From an uncultured Clostridia bacterium (GTDB lineage: Bacteria; Bacillota; Clostridia; Oscillospirales; Acutalibacteraceae): a stretch of 64,000 nt of DNA. Positions 308 through 54,318 of this stretch are shown piece after piece; position 1 is the first letter of the stretch, and the number at the start of each line of letters is the position of its first letter. The DNA is taken from contig CALYBJ010000004.1 of NCBI GenBank assembly GCA_944412445.1, positions 1-64,000 on the forward strand, read 5' to 3'. The notes under the pieces are model-generated. The model was not told the DNA's origin, ran no database searches, and saw only the letters and a list, made by a program, of their open reading frames with translations. The position numbers and the translations under genes were made by a program.

Positions 308-336
308 TTGACTTATAATTTTTTATTTGGTATTAT
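308..336 (+). promoter_or_regulatory. Sigma-A-type promoter for the SCP2/aminotransferase/transketolase operon
   Basis: TTGACT at 308-313 and TATTAT at 331-336 are separated by 17 bp. They lie about 70 bp upstream of the TTG start at 409, leaving a short leader in which I see no riboswitch fold. Confidence 0.55.
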
Positions 337-408: not shown

Positions 409-1167
409 TTGACAGACGCAAAAACACTTGCATACATAAATATGTATGCCGTTCTCGGCACTCTTGAAAATCTCTGTGCTCTGGACGAAAACGCAAGAGC
501 CATTCTTACAAATAAAAAGCCTATTTCTATTTGTTTTGATGTTAAGGACGGCCCTGCGGCTACTATCACCTTCAAAAACGGAAGATGCAGAATGGAGGAC
601 GGCGTTGGCCCCTGCGATATCAGAATCCCGTTTTCTTCATGTGAAAAATTCAACGGAATGATTGACGGCACAGTTATGCCTATTCCTTCAAAGGGCTTTA
701 CTCACATCGGTTTTCTTTTAAAGCAATTTACAAAGCTTACCGATCTTTTAACCGCTTATATGCGTCCCGATCCCGCTGACCTTAAAGACAAAAGATTTTT
801 TGACATCAGCACTTCTTTAATGTTCTATACTATCGCTGTTGCCATTGCTCAGATCGGCAATCAGGACGAAATCGGAAAATTCTCCGCTCACAATATGGTA
901 GACGGCGACATTCTTATGTCCATTAAAGACGGTCCGAAAGCTACTATCTGTGTAAGAAATCATCACCTTATCACCGTAAAGAAGGCTACCGACTCCCCGA
1001 GGGCCCTTATGGAGTTCAGCACTATCGAGCTTGCAAGACAGCTTTTTGACGGTCAGGTTAACTCAGTTGCCTGCATCGGTGAGGGTAAAATCACAATGGG
1101 CGGCATGATTTCAATGATAGACAATATGAACAGAATTCTTGACCTTGTCGGTCTTTATCTTGCTTAA
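409..1167 (+). CDS. Tandem SCP2-like domain protein, first gene of the operon
   Basis: I read this as a protein of about 252 residues made of two similar halves, each ending in the pattern seen in SCP2 (sterol carrier protein 2) folds: a strand, a short helix carrying an F/L-[ND]-G element, then a K-[IM]-x-G segment (for example ACIGEGKITMGG near the C-terminus). Function is unknown; SCP2 folds bind hydrophobic ligands. An in-frame ATG at 376 exists, but the perfect AAAGGAGG at 393-400 sits 8 bases before TTG at 409, so TTG is chosen. The aminotransferase begins 14 bases after the stop, with its Shine-Dalgarno touching this gene's TAA. The protein resembles the last gene of the operon (4432-5241) in size and domain plan. 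Confidence 0.6.
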   Translation: MTDAKTLAYINMYAVLGTLENLCALDENARAILTNKKPISICFDVKDGPAATITFKNGRCRMEDGVGPCDIRIPFSSCEKFNGMIDGTVMPIPSKGFTHIGFLLKQFTKLTDLLTAYMRPDPADLKDKRFFDISTSLMFYTIAVAIAQIGNQDEIGKFSAHNMVDGDILMSIKDGPKATICVRNHHLITVKKATDSPRALMEFSTIELARQLFDGQVNSVACIGEGKITMGGMISMIDNMNRILDLVGLYLA

Positions 1168-1181
1168 GGAGGATATATAAT

Positions 1182-2444
1182 ATGGCTTCAAAATATTGTA
1201 AACATGATAAAAGCCGTGAGTGGTATAACAGAGCCGTAAAGGTAATTCCCTCCGGTATTTACGGACATCTCGGTCCTGCCGAGGGACTTTGGATTCCAAC
1301 CACCTCATGGCCGTTTTTCAGCGAAAGAGCCGAGGCTTCTTATTTCTGGGATGTTGACGGCAATAAATATATTGACTATATGTGCGCTTACGGTCCCAAT
1401 GTTTTAGGATATAATGATCCCGACGTCAACGGAGCCGCTATAGAACAGGCTGCAAAGGAAAACTGCACTACTACACCGTCATACAAAATGGTAGAGCTTG
1501 CAGAGCTTATGGTTGACACTGTTGCCTCTGCTGACTGGGCGTTCTTTGCCAAGAACGGCAACGATGTTACTCAGGCCGCTATCATGTGCGCAAGATATTA
1601 CACCCATAAGAAAAAAATTATTTTCGTAAACGGATTCTATCACGGCGTATCACCCTGGACCCAGAAGCTCGACTACCCCGGTGTCATTCCCGAGGATGTT
1701 GCCAACAACCTTTATATTGACTGGAACGATATTAACGCCCTTAAACAGGTTATCGCTGAAAACGAAGGTGAAATCGCTGCGTTTATCGCTACTCCTTACC
1801 TTCACGGCAACTTTGCAGATAATGTGCTTCCCGCTGACGGATACTGGCAGCAGGTAAGAAAAATCTGTACCGAAAACAACATTGTTCTTATTATTGACGA
1901 TGTCCGCGCAGGCTTCAGGCTTGATCTTGCAGGCTCCGACCATTATTACGGATTTGAAGCTGATCTTATTTGCTTCTGTAAAGCCATTGCCAACGGCTGG
2001 AATATCTCCTGTCTCTGCGGCAAGGACTTCCTTAAGAGCTCAATGAGCGGTCTTTCATATACAGGAAGCTACTGGATGAGCGCAATTCCTTTCGCAGCAG
2101 GTATTGCTTGTATCAATAAAATGAAAAAGCTCAATACTCCCGCGATGTTCAGGGAAAAAGGTATAAAAATTACCGAAGGTCTTAAAGCTGCCGCCGAAAA
2201 CAACGGTTTTGACCTTGTGGTTTCCGGCGAGCCCGCTCTCTTCTATCTGAGAATAGCCAATGACGACTCTCTTTTCATTCATCAGGACTGGGTTCAGGAA
2301 ATGGTTCACAGAGGTATTTTTGTTACCAGCCATCACAATCACTTTATTAACGCTTCTCTTACCGATGAGGATATTAAGAGAACCTGCGAAATCGCTGACG
2401 ACGCATTTAAGACGGTAAGAAAAAACCATCCCGAATGCTTCTGA
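1182..2444 (+). CDS. Class III (HemL-like) PLP-dependent aminotransferase
   Basis: The 420-residue protein has the fold type I, class III plan of glutamate-1-semialdehyde aminomutase relatives. The N-terminal strand reads FWDVDGNKYIDYM, the pyridine-binding Asp lies in IIDDVRAGFR, and the Schiff-base lysine is probably Lys267 in FCKAIANGW. HemL is excluded as a firm call because its usual DE-x-x-TGFR box is altered and no heme genes are near. The substrate is probably an amino sugar, amino ketone or similar carbonyl compound; that is inference from the transketolase pair next door. It is the second gene of the operon, preceded by AAGGAGGATATATAAT. Confidence 0.8.
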   Translation: MASKYCKHDKSREWYNRAVKVIPSGIYGHLGPAEGLWIPTTSWPFFSERAEASYFWDVDGNKYIDYMCAYGPNVLGYNDPDVNGAAIEQAAKENCTTTPSYKMVELAELMVDTVASADWAFFAKNGNDVTQAAIMCARYYTHKKKIIFVNGFYHGVSPWTQKLDYPGVIPEDVANNLYIDWNDINALKQVIAENEGEIAAFIATPYLHGNFADNVLPADGYWQQVRKICTENNIVLIIDDVRAGFRLDLAGSDHYYGFEADLICFCKAIANGWNISCLCGKDFLKSSMSGLSYTGSYWMSAIPFAAGIACINKMKKLNTPAMFREKGIKITEGLKAAAENNGFDLVVSGEPALFYLRIANDDSLFIHQDWVQEMVHRGIFVTSHHNHFINASLTDEDIKRTCEIADDAFKTVRKNHPECF

Positions 2445-2526
2445 TAAAATAAAAAATGCCCTGCGCCGAAAAAGGTTCAGGGCTTAAATACAGTAAATAT
2501 AAAATTCGGAAACGGAGGAAATTTAT

Positions 2527-3399
2527 ATGCCACTTTCAAAGGCTGAATGGCTTGCACTTGAAAAGAAAGCCGACCAGCTCCGCAGACTCACACTTGACAC
2601 CACACACTGGGCAGGAAGCGGACACATCGGCGGAGGTATGAGCGCTCTTGATGTAATGACTGTTCTCTACCACAAGTACATGAAAATCGATGTTAAAAAT
2701 CCCCAGTGGGAAGACAGAGACAGGTTTATTCTTTCCAAAGGTCATGTTGCTATCGCTTACGCTCCCCTGCTTTGCGATTACGGTTTTAACGATCCCGAAA
2801 TGCTTAAAACCTTCAACCTGACAAATTCAAAAATGGGTATGCACCTTGACTCAAATAAAATTGTAGGCGTTGACGCTTCTACAGGTTCTCTCGGTCACGG
2901 AATGTCCATCGCAGTAGGCACAGCTCTTGCCGCAAGAGTAAGAGGCAAGGACTACAAAACCTACGTTCTCTTAGGCGACGGCGAATGTGACGAAGGCTCC
3001 AACTGGGAAGCCGCCATGACTGCCGCCCATTACAAGGTTACAAACATGATTTCGTTTGTTGACCGCAACCGCTGCATGATAGACGGCAAAACGGAAGATG
3101 TAATGAAGCTTGAGCCCTTTGCCGACAAATGGAGAGCATTCGGCTTTATCGTTAAGGAAATCGACGGCAACAACATTAAGGAAATCTGCGAGGCTATTGA
3201 CTTTGCCCTTGAAAACAAAACGGACAGCCCCGTTATGATTATCTGCAACACCAAAAAGGGCTGCGGTATCGACTTCATGGAAGACGATTACACATGGCAC
3301 TATGGCTCTCTTGACGATGACACATACGAGAAAGCTAAGGTTTGTCTCCAGAAGACATACGAAAAGAGAATTGCAAGAGTAGAAAAGGAGGCTGAATAA
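2527..3399 (+). CDS. Transketolase, N-terminal (TPP pyrophosphate-binding) subunit
   Basis: This 290-residue protein is the first half of a transketolase encoded as two genes. It shows the early His segment SGHIGGGMSALD and the TPP/Mg2+ motif beginning GDGECDEGSNWEAAM and running to the Asn of VTNM. Transketolases move two-carbon ketol units between sugar phosphates. The split form is common in archaea and Firmicutes and is often used in special sugar pathways (apulose phosphate or sulfosugar cleavage are known cases), so a housekeeping pentose phosphate role should not be assumed. RBS GGAGG precedes the ATG, and the second subunit begins one base after the stop. Its function should depend on the 3401-4411 product. 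Confidence 0.88.
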   Translation: MPLSKAEWLALEKKADQLRRLTLDTTHWAGSGHIGGGMSALDVMTVLYHKYMKIDVKNPQWEDRDRFILSKGHVAIAYAPLLCDYGFNDPEMLKTFNLTNSKMGMHLDSNKIVGVDASTGSLGHGMSIAVGTALAARVRGKDYKTYVLLGDGECDEGSNWEAAMTAAHYKVTNMISFVDRNRCMIDGKTEDVMKLEPFADKWRAFGFIVKEIDGNNIKEICEAIDFALENKTDSPVMIICNTKKGCGIDFMEDDYTWHYGSLDDDTYEKAKVCLQKTYEKRIARVEKEAE

Positions 3400-3400
3400 G

Positions 3401-4411
3401 ATGGCAGGCGGATTAACCTATACGGCAGTTGACTCAACTTCTCTCTCAACAGCTGAAATTTACGGTCAGGCTCTTGTGCAGCTTGGCGAACAGCATCCCG
3501 AGGTTGTAGCCCTTACGGCTGACCTTGCGAAATCAACAAAAATCGGTGAGTTCCAGAAAAAATTCCCCGACAGATTTTTTAATGTAGGTATTGCGGAACA
3601 GAATATGTTCGGCGTTGCCGCAGGTATGGCAAGAGCGGGTCTTGTACCTTTCCTTTCAACATTCTCTCAGTTCGCTTCGTTCCGCTCAGGCGATCAGCTT
3701 CATACTGATCTCTGCTATCAGAATGTAAACGCTAAGGTTATAGCAACTCATTCAGGAACTTCCTTCGGTCAGGCAGGTTCAACTCATCACGCAATCTGCG
3801 ATTTGGCCCTTGTTCGTTCCATTCCCAATCTCACTGTTATTTGTCCCGCAGACGGTGTTGAGACTTTTAACGCAGTTATGGCTGCATACAACACACCCGG
3901 TCCGTTCTACATCAGAATCAACCGCGGTTTTGACCGTGTTCTTTATAAGGATACAGAATACGGCTTTGAGCTGGGCAAGGCTGTTACAGTTCACGAGGGA
4001 ACAGATATAACCGTTATCGCCACCGGCTCCTGTGTATTCCAGGCTTATCAGGCGGCTGAGTTCCTTGACAAAAACGACGGACTCAAGGTAAGAGTTCTCG
4101 ATATGCACACCATTAAGCCAATAGATAAGGAAGCTATCCTTAAAGCCGTTATGGATACTCGCCGTATTATCACCGTTGAGGATCACAACATAATCGGCGG
4201 TCTCGGCTCTGCTGTGGCTGAGGTAATGTGCGAAGCAGGTAAAGGCTGCGCGTTCAAGAGACTCGGTCATCCGGATCAGTTCGCTCCCATAGGACTTCAT
4301 GAAGATATTATGTCTATCGTAGGTATCGACTGCAACGGTATCATCAACGCCGTAAGAGATACAATGAAGATGGATTTTGAAGAAGATGACAACTGGGACG
4401 ACGAAGTATAA
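3401..4411 (+). CDS. Transketolase, C-terminal (pyrimidine-binding) subunit
   Basis: The 336-residue protein carries the pyrimidine-binding and C-terminal domains of transketolase. The catalytic Glu that activates TPP is Glu66 in VGIAEQNMFG. The segment GQAGSTHHAICDLALVRSIP and the C-terminal TVEDHNIIGGLGSAVAEV are standard for the family. Its Shine-Dalgarno (AAAGGAGG) lies inside the end of the preceding gene and the ATG follows that stop by one base, so the two subunits are translationally coupled. The N-terminal 15 residues precede the conserved part and may be an organism-specific extension. Together with 2527-3399 it should form one active enzyme. Confidence 0.88.
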   Translation: MAGGLTYTAVDSTSLSTAEIYGQALVQLGEQHPEVVALTADLAKSTKIGEFQKKFPDRFFNVGIAEQNMFGVAAGMARAGLVPFLSTFSQFASFRSGDQLHTDLCYQNVNAKVIATHSGTSFGQAGSTHHAICDLALVRSIPNLTVICPADGVETFNAVMAAYNTPGPFYIRINRGFDRVLYKDTEYGFELGKAVTVHEGTDITVIATGSCVFQAYQAAEFLDKNDGLKVRVLDMHTIKPIDKEAILKAVMDTRRIITVEDHNIIGGLGSAVAEVMCEAGKGCAFKRLGHPDQFAPIGLHEDIMSIVGIDCNGIINAVRDTMKMDFEEDDNWDDEV

Positions 4412-4431
4412 TCTTTAAAGGAGGATTTTAA

Positions 4432-5241
4432 ATGGCTTCAAAGGAAGAATTTTTAACCAATAAAATATTCATGAATGCCGCATTGCCGCTTTTAAAGGTT
4501 ATCGTAGCAGATACTCCGTCACTGAGCAAAAAATTCAAAGCCGTTCACTGTGTTTATCAGGTAAGTGCTTTGGATCCAGACGCTCCCGGAGGTAAATACG
4601 CAACTCATTTTCAGGTAAACTGTGACGAATGGGTAATTCACATGAATAAGGTTGAGCCGAAGCCCATGGTTGAGCTTGAATTTAAAAGCGTTGAAGCAAT
4701 GAACGCATTTTTTAAAGGCAAGATCGGTCCGGCAACACTGCCTAAAATGAAAGGCGCTTTAAAATATCCCGAATATTTTATTCCATTTTTAATGGCGCTT
4801 CTTAAAATGGCTTCCCTTCTGGGCGCTACCGAACCCCCTGAAGACGAAGAAACACAGAGACTTCTTGTTAAGTGTTATTTCTACCTGCTGACAAGCGGCA
4901 TAAGCCAGCTTAACAAAAACGGACAGGAAGAGGTACACGACTGGGCAGTTAAGAGTCCCGACCGTGTATACGCTTTCGCTGTTGACAATGAGCCTACCGT
5001 AAGCGCTTATATCCGTGTTAAAGCCGGAAAAACAAGAGCCGGCAGAGGTGAGTATAAGAGAGCGATGCCCTTCTTTACAATGAGATTTGACAATCTCCAG
5101 GACGCTCTGGGCATACTTATGGGCACAGCGGATATGCTTGAGTTTACAAGATCAAAGCGTCTTATTATGGACGGCGCACCCGAATTCGGAGCACAGCTTT
5201 CCGTATTTATGCTTATGGTCGGAGATATGGCAAAAGGCTGA
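4432..5241 (+). CDS. Tandem SCP2-like domain protein, last gene of the operon
   Basis: The 269-residue product has the same two-half plan as the first gene of the operon. Half one ends around VEAMNAFFKGKIGPATLPKM and half two around ILMGTADMLEFTRSKRLIM, each resembling the SCP2 C-terminal helix-Gly-Lys pattern. It is not a close copy: sequence identity between the two proteins is low by eye, so this is an old paralogy or shared fold rather than a recent duplication. Function is unknown. RBS AAAGGAGG precedes the ATG, and a strong terminator closes the operon 28 bases after the stop. A heterodimeric scaffold or ligand carrier for the enzymes between them is possible, but this is inference. Confidence 0.55.
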   Translation: MASKEEFLTNKIFMNAALPLLKVIVADTPSLSKKFKAVHCVYQVSALDPDAPGGKYATHFQVNCDEWVIHMNKVEPKPMVELEFKSVEAMNAFFKGKIGPATLPKMKGALKYPEYFIPFLMALLKMASLLGATEPPEDEETQRLLVKCYFYLLTSGISQLNKNGQEEVHDWAVKSPDRVYAFAVDNEPTVSAYIRVKAGKTRAGRGEYKRAMPFFTMRFDNLQDALGILMGTADMLEFTRSKRLIMDGAPEFGAQLSVFMLMVGDMAKG

Positions 5242-5268: not shown

Positions 5269-5300
5269 CGCCGTGACTTTATAGGTCACGGCGAATTTTT
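5269..5300. terminator. Bidirectional terminator between the operon and the PepSY gene
   Basis: A 9-bp perfect stem (CGCCGTGAC at 5269-5277 with GTCACGGCG at 5285-5293) with A-rich DNA on one side and T-rich on the other can stop transcription from both convergent units. Confidence 0.85.
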
Positions 5301-7401: not shown

Positions 7402-8598
7402 TTATTCCCTGCCAAGCCTTGACTTAAAATCCTTATAACCGAAATCTGTAAGCTTTATAAGCTCTCCGTTCTCTGTTCTTTTCCATATATCAGGCAGCGG
7501 CATACCGTTGAAGGTGTTGTTTTTACAGGTGGTGTATATTGCCATATCTCCGAAAAGCAGAAAATCTCCCTCCTTTAACGGCTCTTTAAAACAAAAATCG
7601 CCTATAATATCACCGGCAAGGCAGGTAGGCCCGCCTAAGCGGTATTTGTATTTATTATTTTTATCGTCCGCACCGTATAAAGGCGGAGTATAGGGCATTT
7701 CAATTACGTCGGGCATATGACAAGCCGCACTGACGTCTGTTACGGCAATTTTAATTCCGCCGTTTTCCACAACATCAAGAATTCTGCCTGCAAGGTAGCC
7801 AGCGTTTAAGGCTACGGCTTCTCCCGGCTCCAAGTATACCTGCAAATTCCATTTATTCTGTGTGTAAGATACAATTTTTATAAGCCTTTGTATGTCGTAA
7901 TCCTTTCTTGTAATATGGTGACCGCCGCCCATATTAAGCCATTTCATGTGAGGCAGTACATCGGAAAATTTCTCCTCAACAGCTTTCAGCGTAATTTCCA
8001 AATCATCTGAATTTTGCTCGCAAAGAGTATGAAAATGAAGCCCGTCAAGAAGAGAAAACAAATCAGGCGTCATATGTTTGTCCCATACTTCCCTTGTTAC
8101 GCCTAATCTGCTGCCATTGGCGCAGGGGTCGTATATTTCGTGTCCCTCCTGAGTTGAACACTGAGGATTGATTCTAAGGCCTAAGCTTTTTCCTGCTCTT
8201 TTCGCTTTTTCTCCGAATTTTTGCAGCTGTCTTACCGAATTAAAAACAATATGGTCAGCGTAAGAAAGCAGTTCGTCAAACTCATCGTCTCTGTATGCTC
8301 CGCAGAAAACATGAACCTCGCCCTCCGGCATTGCTTCCCTGCCAAGTTTCGCTTCATAAAGACCGCTTGCCTCTGTTCCCGATAAGTACTGCGACAAAAC
8401 GCCGTAAAAATTAAAATTTGAAAAAGCCTTTTGAGCAAGCAGTATTCTGCATCCGGTTCTGTCTGCAACGGCTTTTAAAATCTTTCCGTTTTCAATAAGC
8501 TGTTTTTCATCAATTATGTAACACGGTGTTTTAATTTTTCCGAAAAGCTTTTCCGGTTCTTCATTTCCGAGAGACGAAAATATTTCTCTGTTTTCCAT
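7402..8598 (-). CDS. nspC: Carboxynorspermidine/carboxyspermidine decarboxylase
   Basis: The 398-residue protein is a fold type III (alanine racemase-like) PLP decarboxylase. The PLP lysine is expected at Lys57 in LLAQKAFSNF, the glycine-rich phosphate site is WLNMGGGHHITRKDY, and the C-terminal active-site Asp/Cys region includes TCLAGDIIGDF, a diagnostic pattern for the carboxyspermidine branch rather than DapF/LysA. It decarboxylates carboxyspermidine (or carboxynorspermidine) to the polyamine. It lies 8 bases after the matching dehydrogenase gene, so both steps of the aspartate-semialdehyde route are together. Which product is made depends on the diamine supplied; agmatinase nearby suggests putrescine and thus spermidine. 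Confidence 0.9.
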   Translation of the reverse strand: MENREIFSSLGNEEPEKLFGKIKTPCYIIDEKQLIENGKILKAVADRTGCRILLAQKAFSNFNFYGVLSQYLSGTEASGLYEAKLGREAMPEGEVHVFCGAYRDDEFDELLSYADHIVFNSVRQLQKFGEKAKRAGKSLGLRINPQCSTQEGHEIYDPCANGSRLGVTREVWDKHMTPDLFSLLDGLHFHTLCEQNSDDLEITLKAVEEKFSDVLPHMKWLNMGGGHHITRKDYDIQRLIKIVSYTQNKWNLQVYLEPGEAVALNAGYLAGRILDVVENGGIKIAVTDVSAACHMPDVIEMPYTPPLYGADDKNNKYKYRLGGPTCLAGDIIGDFCFKEPLKEGDFLLFGDMAIYTTCKNNTFNGMPLPDIWKRTENGELIKLTDFGYKDFKSRLGRE

Positions 8599-8606
8599 AA
8601 GCTTTA

Positions 8607-9866
8607 TCAGTCAACCAAAACGGGATTGCGGTTTTCTCTTCGCGGCAGTCCGTATTTGTCAAGGGCTTCAAGGAAAGGATCGGGATCGAATTCCTCAACG
8701 GTATATACCCCGGCTTTGCTCCATTTTCCCGTTAAGAGCATTAACGCTCCGCACATAGCCGGAACGCCTGTTGTATAGCTTATTGCCTGGCTTCCAACCT
8801 CTTTGTAACACTCCTGATGATCGCAGACATTATAAATGTAATAAGTTTTCTCCTTGCCGTCTTTTTTGCCTGTAAAAATACATCCGATATTTGTTTTTCC
8901 GTGAGTACGAGGGCCGAGGCTTGCAGGGTCGGGCAGAAGCTCCTTTAAAAATTTGATAGGAACAATCTCTCTGCCCTCAAAATTTACCGGAACGGTTGAC
9001 AGCATACCTACATTTTCAAGGCATTTCATGTGAGTTAAATAGCTTTGACCAAATGTCATAAAGAAGCGTATTCTTTTGACCTCAGGAATATTCAAGGCAA
9101 GAGACTCGATCTCCTCATGATGAAGAAGATACATATCTTTATCTCCTACGCCGTCAAAATTATATTCTCTTTTTATGCTCATTGCGGGAATCTCCACCCA
9201 GCGGCCGTTTTCCCAGTAGCTTCCTGGTGCAGAAACCTCCCTTAAATTAACCTCGGGATTAAAATTTGTGGCAAAAGCATATCCGTGATCGCCGCCGTTG
9301 CAGTCTAATATGTCGATTGTGTCAATGGTGTCAAACTCATGCTTTTTTGCATAAGCGCAGTAAGCCTGGGTAACTCCGGGGTCAAATCCGCAGCCCAAAA
9401 GCGCCGTTAAACCGGCGTTTTTGAATTTTTCTCTGTAAGCCCACTGCCAGCTGTAATCAAAATAAGCTGAAAATCCCGTCTCTTTGCATCTTTTCTCATA
9501 TATTTTCCGCCATTCCGGGTCATCGGTGTCTTCAGGCTCATAATTAGCCGTGTCCATATAATTTACATGACATTCAAGACAGGCGTCCATAATAGTCAAA
9601 TCCTGATACGGCAGAGCTATATTCATAACAAGGTCGGGCTTATATTCATTTATAAGCTTAACAAGCTCCTCAACCTTATCGGCGTCTACCTGAGCCGTAG
9701 TGATTTTAGTAGATGTTTTTCCCTCAAGTGACTTTTTCAGCTCGTCGCATTTTGATTTTGTACGGCTGGCAATGCAAAGCTCAGTAAAAACCTCGCTTGC
9801 CTGACAGCATTTTTTTATTGCTACTCCGGCGACTCCGCCGCAGCCTATAACCAGAACTCTGCTCAT
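8607..9866 (-). CDS. Carboxynorspermidine/carboxyspermidine dehydrogenase (saccharopine dehydrogenase family)
   Basis: The 419-residue protein opens with a Rossmann dinucleotide site, VLVIGCGGVAGVAIKKC, and continues as a saccharopine dehydrogenase-type reductase (segments LVMNIALPYQDLTIMDACL and LLGCGFDPGVTQAYCAY). In this operon it should condense putrescine with L-aspartate beta-semialdehyde and reduce the imine with NADPH to carboxyspermidine. A lysine-pathway saccharopine enzyme is unlikely because the decarboxylase partner follows directly and no lysine genes are near. It starts 4 bases after the agmatinase stop, with RBS AAGGAG before the ATG. Confidence 0.88.
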   Translation of the reverse strand: MSRVLVIGCGGVAGVAIKKCCQASEVFTELCIASRTKSKCDELKKSLEGKTSTKITTAQVDADKVEELVKLINEYKPDLVMNIALPYQDLTIMDACLECHVNYMDTANYEPEDTDDPEWRKIYEKRCKETGFSAYFDYSWQWAYREKFKNAGLTALLGCGFDPGVTQAYCAYAKKHEFDTIDTIDILDCNGGDHGYAFATNFNPEVNLREVSAPGSYWENGRWVEIPAMSIKREYNFDGVGDKDMYLLHHEEIESLALNIPEVKRIRFFMTFGQSYLTHMKCLENVGMLSTVPVNFEGREIVPIKFLKELLPDPASLGPRTHGKTNIGCIFTGKKDGKEKTYYIYNVCDHQECYKEVGSQAISYTTGVPAMCGALMLLTGKWSKAGVYTVEEFDPDPFLEALDKYGLPRRENRNPVLVD

Positions 9867-45880: not shown

Positions 45881-47764
45881 TTGTACAGAGTGTTGTATAG
45901 AAAATGGCGGCCTAAAACTTTTTCCGATGTCTCAGGTCAGCCCCATATAACCGAAACTCTAATGAACGAGGTTAAGGAAAACAGACTTGCTCATGCCTAT
46001 CTCTTTACGGGATCAAGAGGTACGGGCAAGACTTCTTGCGCTAAAATTCTCGCAAAAGCAATAAACTGCCTTAACCCGATAAACGGAAATCCCTGCAATC
46101 AGTGCGATATCTGCAAAGGAATTGACAGCGGCTCCGTTTTGGATGTTGTAGAAATTGACGCAGCCAGCAACCGCGGTATAGATGACATAAGAGCTTTAAG
46201 AGAGGAATCCGCTTTTACGCCGGCTCAGGCAAAATACCGTGTTTACATTATTGATGAAGTTCATATGCTGACGATAGAAGCCTTTAACGCTCTCCTTAAA
46301 ACTCTGGAAGAGCCCCCTGCTCATATCGTCTTTATTCTTGCCACAACGGAGGTACAAAAGCTTCCTTCAACAATTCTGTCAAGATGTCAGAGGTTTGATT
46401 TTAACAGAATCTCCGTTAATGCGATTGTTGAACGGCTTAAATTTGTTGCAGAGCAGGAAAACGCTGTTCTTGATGATGACGCCGCTATGCTTATTGCAAG
46501 AATCGCCGACGGAGGCATGAGAGACGCGCTTTCGATATTTGACAGATGCCTGAGTATTTCGGAGAATGTTACTACAAAAATTGTATCCGAAACTGCGGGA
46601 ATTGTAAGCAAAACATATCTTTTCAAGCTTACCGATGCCATTAAAAATCATGACGTCTCCAAAGCCCTGGGACTTATTGACGAGCTTCACCGTTCGTCTT
46701 TTGACACAGAACGACTGTGTACCGAATTAGCTAATCACTTCAGAAGTCTGTTAATTATAAAATCAGTTTCCCGACCCGAAGATATTCTTTTTTGCACTGA
46801 CGAAGAGCTTAACGATTTGAAAAATGCGGCAAAAAGCTTTACCGTTGAAGAAATTTTGAATATTATGAATGTTTTATCTTCTGCTGTTGCCGCCATTAAA
46901 TCCACACAAAACAGAAGAATCGAAACTGAAATGGCTGTTATAAAAATATGTTCTCCGAATTTGCTTACCGATTTGGACTCGGCGTTGGCCCGTATTTCAG
47001 TTCTTGAAGAAAAAGTAAAAGCCCTTGAATCCGGAAATAACAAAGCTTATGTTCAGCCGAAAAACACAGCAAATACATTCAGCGAGTCCAACGCAAATGC
47101 TAAAAAGGAAATAGATTTAAGTACTCTTGAATTTGAAGATGACAGCGATGAATATGATGATGAAGAATCTTTTGATACAATAAATTCAAATGCGATTTCC
47201 GAAAATACGGACGAGTCGCCGGTATTTGATGAAGCACCGGTATTCGATGAAGCACCGGTATTCGATGAAGCACCGGTATTTGATGAAGCGCCTGTATTTG
47301 ACGAAGCGCCTGTATTTGACGAAGCGCCTGTATTTGACGAAGCGCCTGTATTTGATGAAGCGCCTGTATTTGACGAAGCGCCTGTATTTGACGAAGCACC
47401 GGTATTTGATGAAGCGCCTGTATTTGATGAAGCGCCTGTATTTGATGAAGCTCCGGTATTTGACGAAGAGCCGGCTGCAAATTCAGTAAAAACAAATATC
47501 TCACCTGCGCAGAAAACCGGCTCCCCTGCTTCAGATGCGGAAATCAATAAAATTTGGACAAACTGCATTATTGAAATGGAAAAAAGCTGTCCCCCTACAA
47601 TAGGAATGTTTATAGGCACAAAAGCCGAAATTAACGGTTCTGTGCTGACCATTTCAAATTATAATAGCGTTGTCCCGGGGATTTTTTCAATATTCAAATC
47701 TTCCATAACCGACGCAGTAAAAAAGGTTACAGGCAAAGATTTAACAGTAAAATTAAAACAGTAA
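45881..47764 (+). CDS. dnaX: DNA polymerase III gamma/tau subunit with tandem hexapeptide repeat
   Basis: The 627-residue clamp-loader ATPase starts with TTG (AAGGTG 8 bases upstream) and shows Walker A GSRGTGKT at residues 44-51, the zinc module CLNPINGNPCNQCDIC, DEVHML Walker B and the SRC arginine finger in ILSRCQRF. Domains I-III run to about residue 370. An acidic linker follows, carrying 14 perfect hexapeptide copies of PVFDEA-type units (residues 447-530, last copy PVFDEE), then a C-terminal globular part (residues about 545-627). It loads the sliding clamp in replication. The repeat is described as its own feature. Confidence 0.95.
   Translation: MYRVLYRKWRPKTFSDVSGQPHITETLMNEVKENRLAHAYLFTGSRGTGKTSCAKILAKAINCLNPINGNPCNQCDICKGIDSGSVLDVVEIDAASNRGIDDIRALREESAFTPAQAKYRVYIIDEVHMLTIEAFNALLKTLEEPPAHIVFILATTEVQKLPSTILSRCQRFDFNRISVNAIVERLKFVAEQENAVLDDDAAMLIARIADGGMRDALSIFDRCLSISENVTTKIVSETAGIVSKTYLFKLTDAIKNHDVSKALGLIDELHRSSFDTERLCTELANHFRSLLIIKSVSRPEDILFCTDEELNDLKNAAKSFTVEEILNIMNVLSSAVAAIKSTQNRRIETEMAVIKICSPNLLTDLDSALARISVLEEKVKALESGNNKAYVQPKNTANTFSESNANAKKEIDLSTLEFEDDSDEYDDEESFDTINSNAISENTDESPVFDEAPVFDEAPVFDEAPVFDEAPVFDEAPVFDEAPVFDEAPVFDEAPVFDEAPVFDEAPVFDEAPVFDEAPVFDEAPVFDEEPAANSVKTNISPAQKTGSPASDAEINKIWTNCIIEMEKSCPPTIGMFIGTKAEINGSVLTISNYNSVVPGIFSIFKSSITDAVKKVTGKDLTVKLKQ
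47219..47470 (+). repeat. 14-copy 18-bp in-frame tandem repeat inside dnaX
   Basis: Exactly 252 bases consist of fourteen 18-mers, each encoding Pro-Val-Phe-Asp-Glu-Ala (last copy ends in Glu). Nucleotide variants mix CCG/CCT for Pro, TTT/TTC for Phe, GAT/GAC for Asp and GCA/GCG/GCT for Ala, with blocks of identical neighbouring copies that suggest recent slippage or unequal recombination. The opposite frames give artefactual open frames. Confidence 0.97.
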
Positions 47765-48761: not shown

Positions 48762-50360
48762 ATGGACACAAAATATGCTTTAACCTATGACATCGGTACA
48801 ACAGGCGTTAAAACCTGTGTATTTGAAATTACCGATGTAATCAAGCTTATAGGCGCAGATTCCTGCGGATACAATCTTTATGTATTCCCCGACGGCGGCG
48901 CCGAGCAGGATCCTGACGAATGGTGGAGCGCCATGTGCGGCACTACAAAAACAGCTCTTAAAAAAGCAGGTATCAAGGCTAAGGATATAAACGGAATTTC
49001 CTTCTGTTCTCAGATGCAGGGCGTTGTTCTTGTTGATAAAGAAGGTTATCATGTTCGCAGAGCCATGAGCTATATGGACCAGAGAGCCAAGGATGAGCTT
49101 AAAAAGGGTATCGCCCACGGTCCTCAGATCGCAGGCGCTAACATTCCCAAGCTTCTTAAATCTCTTCAGATTACAGGAGCGGTTGCCGCTTCCGTAAAAG
49201 ACCCTGTTTGGAAATACAAATGGGTAGAAGCTCACGAGCCGGAAAATTTCGCGAAGGTATATAAATGGCTGGATGTTAAAGAATATCTCATCTGCCGTAT
49301 GACAGGCGAATTCTGCATGACACCCGATTCAGCCTTCGCATCCATGATATATGACATAAGAAAAGGCAAAGAATGTTGGAGCAAGGAAATGACCGATATG
49401 CTGGGCATTAAATACGAGCACCTTGCAGACATTAAGCCCTGCACGGCAAAAATCGGCACACTTACAGAAAAAGCCGCTAAGGAGCTTCATCTTGAGCCGG
49501 GCATCGCTGTATTCGGCGGCGGCGGTGACGCTTCATTAATCGGCGTAGGCGCAGGCTCTGTTGATATCGGCGACACACATGTTTATTCCGGAACTTCGGG
49601 ATGGGTTTCAACGGTTGTTGACAAGAGTATTGTTGACGCAAGCGCAATGATCGCCGCCATTGTAGGCGCTGATCCCGGAAAATTCAACTACTTTGCGGAG
49701 CTTGAAACAGCCGGCAAATGTCTTGAATGGGTCAAAGACCATCTTGCTCTTGACGAAATCGGCATTTATCTTAAAAAAGAGAAAATCACCGATTCCTACG
49801 AAGCTGAATATACAAGTCTTTACGATTATATGTCGGAAATTATTGATAAAGTTCCTGCCGGCGCAAACGGAGTTATTTTCACTCCCTGGCTTCACGGAAA
49901 CAGATGTCCCTTTGAGGATCCCAACGCAAGAGGTATGTTCTTTAACATAAGCCTTGAAACAGGTAAATCCGAGCTTTTAAGAGCCGTTATTGAGGGTGTA
50001 TGCTATCATCTCCGCTGGTTCATTGATGTTCAGGAAAAGAAGGTAAGAACCTCACAGCGCATCAGATTTGTAGGCGGCGGCGCTTTATCTCCGGTTACGT
50101 GTCAGATCCTTGCCGATGTTACAGGCAAAACTGTCGAAACAATTGACAGTCCCCAGAATGTAGGAGCAGTAGGCGCAGCAGTTGTTGTTGCGGCAGGACT
50201 TGGCATCATCAACGGCGTTCATGAAGCAAAAAAGCTTATTAACATAGTAAAAACCTATCATCCTCAAGCTGCGAACAAGCCCATTTATGATAAGCAGTAT
50301 GAGGTATTTAAGAACCTTTATAAATCCAACAAAAACAACTTTGCTGCATTAAACGGTTAA
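48762..50360 (+). CDS. FGGY-family carbohydrate kinase, xylulokinase-like
   Basis: The 532-residue kinase opens with the phosphate-1 motif YDIGTTGVKTCVFE, has the sugar-binding FCSQMQGVVLVD and SYMDQRA segments, and the nucleotide loops VFGGGGDASLIGVGAG, YSGTSGWVST and RFVGGGALSPVTCQIL. It phosphorylates a ketose or polyol; xylulose is a guess from overall similarity. The gene follows recR by 18 bases with its own strong AGGAGG-like site (GGAGG), and its codon use is more like the highly expressed operon at 409-5241 than like recR. It may supply sugar phosphate to the split transketolase, but this is inference. Confidence 0.82.
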   Translation: MDTKYALTYDIGTTGVKTCVFEITDVIKLIGADSCGYNLYVFPDGGAEQDPDEWWSAMCGTTKTALKKAGIKAKDINGISFCSQMQGVVLVDKEGYHVRRAMSYMDQRAKDELKKGIAHGPQIAGANIPKLLKSLQITGAVAASVKDPVWKYKWVEAHEPENFAKVYKWLDVKEYLICRMTGEFCMTPDSAFASMIYDIRKGKECWSKEMTDMLGIKYEHLADIKPCTAKIGTLTEKAAKELHLEPGIAVFGGGGDASLIGVGAGSVDIGDTHVYSGTSGWVSTVVDKSIVDASAMIAAIVGADPGKFNYFAELETAGKCLEWVKDHLALDEIGIYLKKEKITDSYEAEYTSLYDYMSEIIDKVPAGANGVIFTPWLHGNRCPFEDPNARGMFFNISLETGKSELLRAVIEGVCYHLRWFIDVQEKKVRTSQRIRFVGGGALSPVTCQILADVTGKTVETIDSPQNVGAVGAAVVVAAGLGIINGVHEAKKLINIVKTYHPQAANKPIYDKQYEVFKNLYKSNKNNFAALNG

Positions 50361-51649: not shown

Positions 51650-52441
51650 TTATATATTTTCAACAATTTTCTCTAACTTTTTGCAGCTGTCCGTTATTTC
51701 TTTTTCGCTGTCATAGCTCCAATTATAAAGCTCAATTATATATTTGCCGGCATACCCGCAGCTTTTCATTGCTTTAAAAAATTTCTCAAAATTAAAATCT
51801 CCGGAGCAGGGAGCGCAGCAGTCTTTTTCGGCATTATGGTCGCTGATATGAACATGAACCACCGTATCATGAAGCTTTTCGAGAAAATCATAAGGCGTAT
51901 AGCCAGCCCTGTATGCCTGCTTGATATCAAAAACGGTTTTAAAATCACTGCCGATATAATCACTCATCATTTTCAGATAATCCGGAGACTCGCTTCTGTA
52001 ATACACAACATTTTCATGACAGACCCTTACGCCGTATTTATCGCCCATTTCCATAAGCCGCATAAACCTTTTGCAGTATTCCTCATCATCAACTGAGCCC
52101 GGTTTTTTTGCTCCGTGTATTACAAATATATCAGCGCCCAGCATTGAGGTTACTTTAAGAAATCTGTCGTACAAGGGCAAAATATCATAAAATCGCCTTT
52201 CGTAATTGCTGAAAATATAAAAGGACTCTGCAAAAGACTGGAAAGGATGCACCGACGGTATATTAACTTCGTATTTATCCTTTATACGCTGTATGTCACT
52301 TATAAATTCATCTGAAAGCTCCGACGGAGAATTAAAAAAAATTTCTATATTTTTAAACCCCAGCTCACAGGATTTTAAAAATGACTTTTCCGTTTCAAGT
52401 GGATAAAAACACGCTGAAGATACGCCGAAATCAAATGACAT
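51650..52441 (-). CDS. Sugar phosphate isomerase/epimerase-like TIM-barrel protein
   Basis: The 263-residue protein belongs to the xylose isomerase-like TIM-barrel group (AP endonuclease 2 family). Metal-binding segments are VRVCHENVVYYRS (Glu), VFDIKQAYRAG (Asp), VVHVHISDHN (His) and KYIIELYNWSYDSE (Glu). Members interconvert sugars or inositol derivatives, or act as hydroxypyruvate isomerases; the substrate is unknown. It is a single-gene unit with the start at ATG 52441. Confidence 0.75.
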   Translation of the reverse strand: MSFDFGVSSACFYPLETEKSFLKSCELGFKNIEIFFNSPSELSDEFISDIQRIKDKYEVNIPSVHPFQSFAESFYIFSNYERRFYDILPLYDRFLKVTSMLGADIFVIHGAKKPGSVDDEEYCKRFMRLMEMGDKYGVRVCHENVVYYRSESPDYLKMMSDYIGSDFKTVFDIKQAYRAGYTPYDFLEKLHDTVVHVHISDHNAEKDCCAPCSGDFNFEKFFKAMKSCGYAGKYIIELYNWSYDSEKEITDSCKKLEKIVENI

Positions 52442-52812: not shown

Positions 52813-54318
52813 TCAGCCGTATACAATAGTCGTTATACTTTTTTCGGGAAGCTTAATAATGGATTTAGCGTTTCCGCTGTGAGTCTGCACCATTTGCGCG
52901 TCAGCAGTTGAAGTCCATATCTCCTGATGTCCGCAGCCGATACTCATAACCGCATTTCTTTCTGAGCCTTCGTTAACAAGTACGCAGACTGTTTTTCCCT
53001 CCGGCGTTTTAAATGCGGAAATGTTCAACGATTTTGTGCTGTCCTTTATATCTCCGTTCTTTGTTACCGAAAGGTCCAGTATATCCGAAACGGCAGCTAT
53101 TCTTACGCTTCCCTCAGGTATAAACTTGGTGAAATGCGCCATTGCGTAGTATCTTGAGGCTGTATAAAGCTCCGTAACCTCTTCATTTGAAACAAGCAAA
53201 CCGTCGGAGTACTTCTCTCCGTCATCTCCTATGGAGTAGTTATTTACTCCTACCCAAGCCGACCATGTATTGGCGTTTGAAAGTGTTAAATCCTGAGAAA
53301 TCACTCTTGCCATTAAAAGTGCCGAATCAAAATCGTTTATGCTGTGAGTGCAGGGCAGCTCGCACCATTCCGTCATATCTATACTGATTTTACCGCCGTA
53401 AAGCTCGTCTACAGTTTTCCCGAAATCCTTTTTGCCTAAGGTATTAACATCGCTCCAATAGCTGTGATATGCCAGGGAACCCATTACTTCGGCTATTTCA
53501 CTGTCACCGTATAAGTTTTCAAAATACCATTCTGTTGTTTCTCCGACTTCTCCGCTTTCAGGTCCCATAAGCTTAACATCAAGACCGCTTTCCTTGATTT
53601 TTTCGGCGAAGACTTTAAACAAAGCCACTACTTCCTCTTTTTCATAATGACAGCCTTCCTGCCCGACCCATTCTCCTCCCCAGCTCCACTGAGGCTCGTT
53701 AACAGGGCTTATGTATTTTACGGGAACGCCTTTATTTATAAAATATTCAGTAATTGTAAGGAAGTAGTCCGCGTAGGCTTCATAATTTTCCTCCGGAAGA
53801 TTTGAATAGTACTCAACCTGACCTCCCGTTGCCTGGCCTGTTCTCGTCATTGAATAGTGAGGAGAATTTGCAAAAAGCACCACCGTATCAATACACCCGT
53901 AGGACAGACACATATCAAGCATCTTCTGAGCCGCGGCATCTCTTGTGAAATCGTATTCATACTCCCCTGTTTCTTCATTGTAATAATAAAAGCTTTCAGT
54001 TGCTCTTGAACCGCTTATTCTGCTGTTAGGATTATCCTTTGAGCCGCCGCCGACATTGTATCTGTAAATTGTAAGACCTAAGCCCTCCTTTGAATAAAGA
54101 GCCTTTGCAATATCCTGCGCATAAGCGGAATCACCGGCATTCTGCGCCCACCAGCAGGCTGACGCACCGAAGCCGTCTATAGTCTGATATGTTGCATAAG
54201 GATTAATCGTAATGCTGACATCTGCATTTTTCATAAAGTTACCGTCCCCTCCGCAGTAAATTACAAGCATATCAAGAAGCGACAGCAGCAAACAAAAAAA
54301 TCTTCTCAGTAAAAACAT
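52813..54318 (-). CDS. Secreted GH30-family glycoside hydrolase
   Basis: The 501-residue protein begins with an export signal (RRFFCLLLSLLDMLVIY) that lacks a standard lipobox, so it is secreted or anchored. The catalytic (beta/alpha)8 barrel carries acid/base Glu in SPVNEPQWSW and nucleophile Glu in SIDMTEWCELP, with the family N-terminal motif TIDGFGASACWWAQNAG. A C-terminal beta-sandwich of about 100 residues completes the GH30 plan. This motif style resembles endo-beta-1,6-galactanases and related GH30 subfamilies more than glucosylceramidases; the exact polymer is unsure. It probably acts outside the cell on plant or mucin-like glycans. Confidence 0.82.
   Translation of the reverse strand: MFLLRRFFCLLLSLLDMLVIYCGGDGNFMKNADVSITINPYATYQTIDGFGASACWWAQNAGDSAYAQDIAKALYSKEGLGLTIYRYNVGGGSKDNPNSRISGSRATESFYYYNEETGEYEYDFTRDAAAQKMLDMCLSYGCIDTVVLFANSPHYSMTRTGQATGGQVEYYSNLPEENYEAYADYFLTITEYFINKGVPVKYISPVNEPQWSWGGEWVGQEGCHYEKEEVVALFKVFAEKIKESGLDVKLMGPESGEVGETTEWYFENLYGDSEIAEVMGSLAYHSYWSDVNTLGKKDFGKTVDELYGGKISIDMTEWCELPCTHSINDFDSALLMARVISQDLTLSNANTWSAWVGVNNYSIGDDGEKYSDGLLVSNEEVTELYTASRYYAMAHFTKFIPEGSVRIAAVSDILDLSVTKNGDIKDSTKSLNISAFKTPEGKTVCVLVNEGSERNAVMSIGCGHQEIWTSTADAQMVQTHSGNAKSIIKLPEKSITTIVYG

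Follow-up and report, generated by a model that had tools for sequence, protein, structure and literature searches.

A conserved gene set of gut Clostridia combining SCP2-like proteins, aminotransferases and a split transketolase: a possible pathway for sphingoid bases

We analysed a stretch of 64,000 nucleotides (the window) from an uncultured bacterium of the class Clostridia (family Acutalibacteraceae; contig CALYBJ010000004.1 of assembly GCA_944412445.1), in which five genes lie on the forward strand at positions 409-5241, separated by gaps of 14, 82, 1 and 20 bp. The genes encode two SCP2-like proteins (SCP2a and SCP2b) flanking an aminotransferase (AT1) and the two subunits of a split transketolase (Table 1), and we propose below that they belong to a larger system that possibly acts on long-chain amino alcohols. 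A preliminary description of the locus had placed five tightly spaced genes here behind one promoter and one terminator. All five were found at that place and are followed by a strong intrinsic terminator; a single promoter is plausible, with one candidate site upstream of SCP2a, and promoter-like sites overall (12 found against 10.6 +/- 3.2 expected) were not above chance. The SCP2a gene begins with a TTG codon at 409, has an AGGAGG motif at 395-400, and its protein start (TDAKTLAYIN...) is the same at other loci. The inner genes matched the Pfam families Aminotran_3 (P0002, 1.8e-38), Transketolase_N (P0003, 1.4e-47) and Transket_pyr plus Transketolase_C (P0004, 1.2e-43), in agreement with the two transketolase subunits named previously. 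The interval between the AT1 and transketolase genes (2445-2526) contains a GC-rich stem (GCCCTG...CAGGGC) that lacks a T run, a possible attenuator.

Table 1. Features of the operon and of associated genes; positions refer to the window unless a contig or locus is named.
Feature	Position	Strand	Basis or remark
Promoter-like site TTGACT-17-TATTAT, extended -10	308-336	+	Candidate, 10/12 matches
SCP2-like protein a (SCP2a, P0001, 252 aa; two predicted SCP2-like halves)	409-1167	+	Fold model, weak PF02036 match, conserved
Class III aminotransferase (AT1, P0002); FumI (6hbs) nearest solved structure	1182-2444	+	Pfam, sequence comparison
Split transketolase, N-terminal, thiamine diphosphate (ThDP)-binding subunit (P0003)	2527-3399	+	Catalytic His and cofactor residues kept
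Split transketolase, C-terminal subunit (P0004)	3401-4411	+	Phosphate Arg replaced by Ala18, acceptor Asp by Ala
SCP2-like protein b (SCP2b, P0005, 269 aa; two predicted SCP2-like halves)	4432-5241	+	Fold model, homology to SCP2a
Intrinsic terminator, strong hairpin then T run	5269-5293	+	
FGGY-family kinase (P0008), same system, 43 kb from the operon, behind recR	48762-50360	+	Orthologues, co-occurrence
Second class III aminotransferase (AT2) and FucA-like class II aldolase (P0007; degenerate second aldolase domain)	G000:C19:18590-21319 (L090:6591-9323), outside the window		AT2 88% identical to query

The two outer proteins had been described as SCP2-like, with the same plan of two halves. 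In the Pfam search, SCP2a reached 14.5 bits against PF02036, below the cut-off of 21.3 (expectation value E 0.047), and SCP2b gave no match; profile searches of both proteins against PDB sequences yielded nothing useful. The AlphaFold models were confident (mean predicted local distance difference test score, pLDDT, 94.2 for SCP2a and 91.7 for SCP2b), and in a Foldseek search of the PDB with both models SCP2 structures ranked at the top, among them the alkyl-binding C-terminal SCP2 domain of the alkylsulfatase SdsA1, UbiJ and human SCP2L. Superposition with VIA gave Z scores of 11.8 (3bdq) and 11.9 (1ikt) for the C-terminal half, over about 107-113 residues with a root-mean-square deviation of 2.7-2.8. 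Each model contains one helix/strand series that is present twice, the structural matches covering mostly the C-terminal half. Both outer proteins are therefore predicted to have related SCP2 folds, as the preliminary description had supposed, and comparison of their profiles (E 3.9e-6) identifies them at the sequence level as distant paralogues, homologous to each other. SCP2 domains typically bind lipids; the structural matches listed also include MycE and Eis, enzymes with soluble substrates that carry SCP2-like structural domains. The bacterial SCP2 domains of UbiJ/UbiT and SdsA1 assist enzymes on hydrophobic substrates, and UbiJ and SdsA1 are among our top matches, whereas here two stand-alone proteins with two predicted SCP2-like halves each flank soluble enzymes in an operon. 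A PF02036 protein encoded elsewhere in the same genome proved to be a separate short protein and was rejected as a member of the system.

Subsequently, we examined the best 80 of 142 confirmed relatives of SCP2b from one genome scan together with their gene neighbourhoods. All 80 loci belong to Clostridia or to unclassified Bacillota, and most of them stem from gut metagenomes of ruminants, rabbits and birds. The five genes occur in the same order at 67 of them and 12 are interrupted by contig ends, so that the sole exception is a locus (L014) with only the last three genes, the transketolase-SCP2b part. In two genomes (G718 and G792, loci L161 and L162) the order is 3-4-5-1-2 with the five genes still together, and the AT1-transketolase gap has a median of 61 bp across loci. 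The recurrence of the set is not due to chance, and the unit consists of these five genes, since the other flanking genes vary between loci; the set is thus conserved beyond this genome, and the view that its genes form one system is upheld. Besides an AT2-aldolase pair described below, no conserved extra neighbours were found at the loci. A nucleosidase (8 loci), an M24 peptidase (7), a glycoside hydrolase of family 3 (9) and an acetyltransferase-like protein (4) are local neighbours only, and a nucleosidase-linked salvage of 5-deoxyribose was dropped, the nucleosidase being local rather than general. Among 291 genomes sampled across the class, SCP2a gave one weak match only, and the system is thus not class-wide.

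The system is nevertheless larger than the preliminary description saw. At 12 of 80 loci the operon is adjoined by a divergent pair of genes that encode another class III aminotransferase (AT2) and a two-domain class II aldolase, and in the genome under study the pair lies on another contig. Of the loci surrounding the AT2-aldolase pair in 20 genomes, 10 also encode an FGGY kinase, orthologous to the product of the window gene at 48762-50360, alongside a TetR-type regulator. At one locus (L150) FGGY kinase, TetR, aldolase and AT2 genes stand divergent from a complete five-gene operon within about 11 kb. That segment (L150:2956-13156) holds all eight genes plus the TetR gene and is directly followed by a gene for an M28-type peptidase, a relative of which lies near the FGGY gene in L149. 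We further searched 250 genomes of the family, representing 135 genera, with E-value cut-offs for aldolase and kinase calls that we set ourselves. SCP2b was carried by 59 genomes, the aldolase by 60 and the FGGY kinase by 63, all three together by 55 (Fisher p ~1e-44 or lower for each pair); by genus, 28 were shared of 30, 30 and 33, respectively (p ~2e-24 to 4e-24), shared ancestry not being removed at either level. Odds ratios for the three system genes ranged from 490 to 2700, against 14 for an unrelated fucosidase family with the carriers, which served as a yardstick of lifestyle. Even a 1.1 Mb genome (G592) retains transketolase, SCP2b, AT2, aldolase and kinase. The window kinase and the AT2-aldolase pair thus belong to the system, and the earlier suggestion that the kinase at 48762 supplies an extra step gains from both its co-occurrence and its orthologues beside other system genes in relatives. 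The TIM-barrel "isomerase" at 51650, suggested likewise, gave a generic match only and showed no link to the system.

The aldolase scores as L-fuculose-phosphate-aldolase-like, below the equivalog cut-offs. In an alignment with FucA (1fua/1dzw), the zinc-binding His residues, Glu73 as the catalytic residue and the two Ser residues that bind phosphate are all retained in its N-terminal half, and by sequence inspection the C-terminal half is without the metal-ligand His residues. The FGGY kinase is nearest to xylulokinase, again below the cut-off. A kinase feeding an aldolase of the dihydroxyacetone phosphate type follows, by analogy, the logic of L-fucose breakdown (FucK, FucA), with which the system shares an FGGY kinase and a FucA-like class II aldolase with phosphate and zinc residues. 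It differs in that an aminotransferase replaces the isomerase, the aldolase is fused to a degenerate second aldolase domain and the kinase is nearest to xylulokinase.

The operon transketolase keeps the catalytic and cofactor residues and has lost two residues of the substrate site. Equivalents of H37, H77, H110, D155, N185, H258 and E366 are invariant in its family. In 68 of 68 relatives the phosphate-binding Arg (human Arg318) is replaced by Ala or Ser, and the acceptor-hydroxyl Asp (human Asp424) by Ala. The same genome encodes a separate, canonical split transketolase (on contig C15, 46% to P0004) that keeps this Arg and Asp, as well as a DXS-like protein. Judged by these two sites, the operon enzyme is a specialised copy and not a canonical sugar-phosphate enzyme. 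With the split-chain transketolase of Carboxydothermus (6yak/6yaj) it shares two subunits, the catalytic Glu and His and the ThDP-binding residues; in contrast, the phosphate Arg and acceptor Asp of that enzyme are Ala/Ser and Ala in all operon relatives. Changing the Asp (D469 in E. coli, D477 in yeast) raises transketolase activity on aliphatic aldehydes, with a 50- to 100-fold gain for yeast D477E (PMC5573996, PMC6310800). The engineered changes were to Glu or Thr and the residue here is Ala, which makes the parallel an analogy and not a test. In the 1.1 Mb genome a divergent transketolase-SCP2b trio (L160:9719-12483) stands without adjoining SCP2a and AT1 genes, and its acceptor Asp is Ser, not Ala.

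Regarding AT1, the preliminary description had called it HemL-like. AT1 is a class III aminotransferase, but it fell short of the HemL NCBIfam equivalog cut-offs (201 against 527 bits for TIGR00713, 223 against 398 for NF000818), and its nearest solved relative is FumI (6hbs, E 4e-82), compared with 1e-46 for the best glutamate-semialdehyde aminomutase. It is 36.5% identical to FumI and 32% to the aminomutase, and 42 invariant columns of the AT1 family match FumI against the mutase and AT2, while 12 match the mutase against FumI. By sequence, AT1 is therefore of FumI type, closer to FumI than to the aminomutase. FumI, a class III aminotransferase from the fumonisin breakdown of Sphingopyxis, acts on hydrolysed fumonisin, a long-chain 2-amino-3-hydroxy base resembling sphinganine; pyruvate receives the 2-amino group and a 2-ketone is left (PMC2933618). 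By analogy AT1 may deaminate a long-chain 2-amino-3-ol, unlike FumI outside a fum fumonisin-catabolic cluster. A full-text search of the literature revealed no link of a fumonisin transaminase with a transketolase.

We propose, with a probability of roughly 45%, that hydrophobic 2-amino-3-hydroxy alkanes are metabolised, most likely broken down, by a pathway of these eight genes, in which deamination would be followed either by ketol transfer or by the action of kinase and aldolase; the best candidates for the substrate are long-chain (sphingoid) bases. The product of a FumI-type reaction is an alpha-hydroxy ketone, the kind of compound that transketolases cleave. In a first arm, encoded by the window operon, AT1 would take the 2-amino group off bases without a 4-hydroxyl to give a 3-hydroxy-2-ketone (ketol), and the split transketolase would cut it between C2 and C3, so that an aldose accepts the two-carbon unit and a long-chain aldehyde is freed; the loss of the acceptor-hydroxyl Asp fits this arm. 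A second arm of AT2, FGGY kinase and FucA-like aldolase would serve bases with an additional 4-hydroxyl, of the phytosphingosine type. AT2 would produce the 2-ketone, the kinase would phosphorylate the terminal hydroxyl, and the aldolase would cut between C3 and C4, as in fucose breakdown, yielding dihydroxyacetone phosphate and a long-chain aldehyde, a retro-aldol cut that is possible because such a base carries the 4-hydroxyl. The task of the two SCP2-like proteins would be to keep hold of the hydrophobic substrate or aldehyde and to pass it from one soluble enzyme to the next. The kinase and the TetR gene suggest the direction of breakdown.

The genome, which is 95.9% complete, contains no alpha-oxoamine synthase (TIGR01825; 13 of 14 controls positive) and no pyridoxal phosphate (PLP) lyase of PF00282 (8 of 14 controls positive), so that the part covered has neither a serine palmitoyltransferase nor a sphingosine-1-phosphate lyase. 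The route through sphingosine kinase and this lyase would likewise free a long-chain aldehyde by a C2-C3 cut, but PF00282 is absent here and in our proposal the amine goes first. The known bacterial sphingosine pathway, SphBCD of Pseudomonas aeruginosa, is unrelated: it acts on sphingosine, sphinganine and phytosphingosine through an oxidase in the periplasm, a cytochrome c and a predicted PLP aldolase, and has no transketolase, aminotransferase or SCP2 protein (PMC11893366). Several observations weigh against the proposal. Full-length secreted neutral ceramidase was found in 2 of 250 genomes only (G792 and G608, both full carriers; probability by chance ~0.05), and a search of the genome under study gave no match; an enrichment of ceramidase domains (33 of 59 carriers) was discarded as support, being equalled by the fucosidase control with an odds ratio of ~14 for both. 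Furthermore, xylulokinase, to which the kinase is nearest, adds its phosphate at the end remote from the ketone. A catabolic transketolase step needs a sugar-phosphate acceptor, whose binding would suffer from the missing phosphate Arg, and the likeness of AT1 to FumI amounts to just 36.5% identity in a superfamily that readily switches substrate. The two full-length ceramidases (L179:6279-8609 and L180:4777-7680) carry the motifs GDVSPN and GDISPN.

Three other explanations have to be weighed. The first is a polar pathway, acting on an amino sugar, amino polyol or amino ketose, in which the SCP2-like proteins would be protein-protein scaffolds and not lipid carriers. In its favour, three of the enzymes (FGGY kinase, FucA-like aldolase and transketolase) are of sugar type, and SCP2-like domains have a structural role in enzymes with soluble substrates, MycE and Eis among them. 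We consider such a pathway unlikely, though deserving of real weight: the transketolase has lost the Asp that senses the hydroxyl of the acceptor, as well as one phosphate Arg, AT1 is FumI-like, and four predicted SCP2-like halves reside in two stand-alone proteins. Given the FumI-like AT1, the residue losses of the transketolase and the lipid binding typical of SCP2 domains, a hydrophobic amino alcohol fits better than a polar amino ketose, the hypothesis of the preliminary description. Alternatively, the same enzymes may work in the direction of synthesis. A fatty aldehyde would take up dihydroxyacetone phosphate through the aldolase or, through the transketolase, a two-carbon ketol donated by a ketose phosphate; AT1 or AT2 would then aminate the ketone, so that sphingoid-like bases would arise independently of serine palmitoyltransferase. 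Every step is reversible in principle, the genome is without any alpha-oxoamine synthase, and transketolase, SCP2b, AT2, aldolase and kinase persist in the 1.1 Mb genome; moreover, the Oscillospirales bacterium Flavonifractor plautii was reported to make phytosphingosine with enzymes as yet unknown (PMC11914097). Synthesis nevertheless appears improbable, as a kinase feeding a FucA-type aldolase and an adjoining TetR gene suit breakdown of a substrate better, and no gene for forming fatty aldehydes or for N-acylation is conserved near the loci. Finally, a co-inherited neighbourhood of two unrelated pathways, SCP2a with AT1 and transketolase with SCP2b for pentose metabolism, would account for the wider AT1-transketolase gap (82 bp here) and for the absence of the first two genes at L014 and beside the trio of G592, but is very improbable: the five genes stay together at each of the 67 complete loci, as they do in the rearranged L161 and L162, the genome has a separate transketolase, and SCP2a and SCP2b are related to each other.

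The protein families are known and the pathway as a set appears to be new. No described pathway with this gene set was found, in agreement with the preliminary description, and the open-access literature yielded no papers on transketolase with sphinganine or sphingoid bases, an absence that is not proof. We tentatively suggest that gut Clostridia possess a sphingoid-base pathway unlike all known ones, in which a transketolase, together with kinase and aldolase for 4-hydroxylated bases, would make or break the C-C bond and SCP2-like carriers would hand the lipid over. We know of no earlier natural transketolase dedicated to a lipid; if the proposal is true, this would be the first as far as we are aware, and would parallel in nature the transketolases that were engineered at the same Asp for aliphatic aldehydes. 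Sphingoid bases in the gut are signals and antimicrobials that come from the host, plants and Bacteroidetes. Their metabolism would then be linked to central sugar metabolism by an undescribed route in widespread, mostly uncultured gut Clostridia, with a direct link between sphingolipid and pentose-phosphate metabolism and possibly a serine-independent synthesis. Whatever the substrate, eight co-occurring genes that are present in roughly one in four of the family genomes sampled, and for which no function has been described, are a clear target.

Among the other genes of the window, adjoining genes on the reverse strand at 7402-9866 encode an ornithine/diaminopimelate/arginine-type decarboxylase and a saccharopine-dehydrogenase-like protein, probably carboxynorspermidine decarboxylase and synthase. 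A glycoside hydrolase of family 30, with no demonstrated tie to the system, is encoded at 52813-54318, also on the reverse strand. A dnaX-like open reading frame at 45881-47764 contains a long array of PVFDEA repeats in its C-terminal part.

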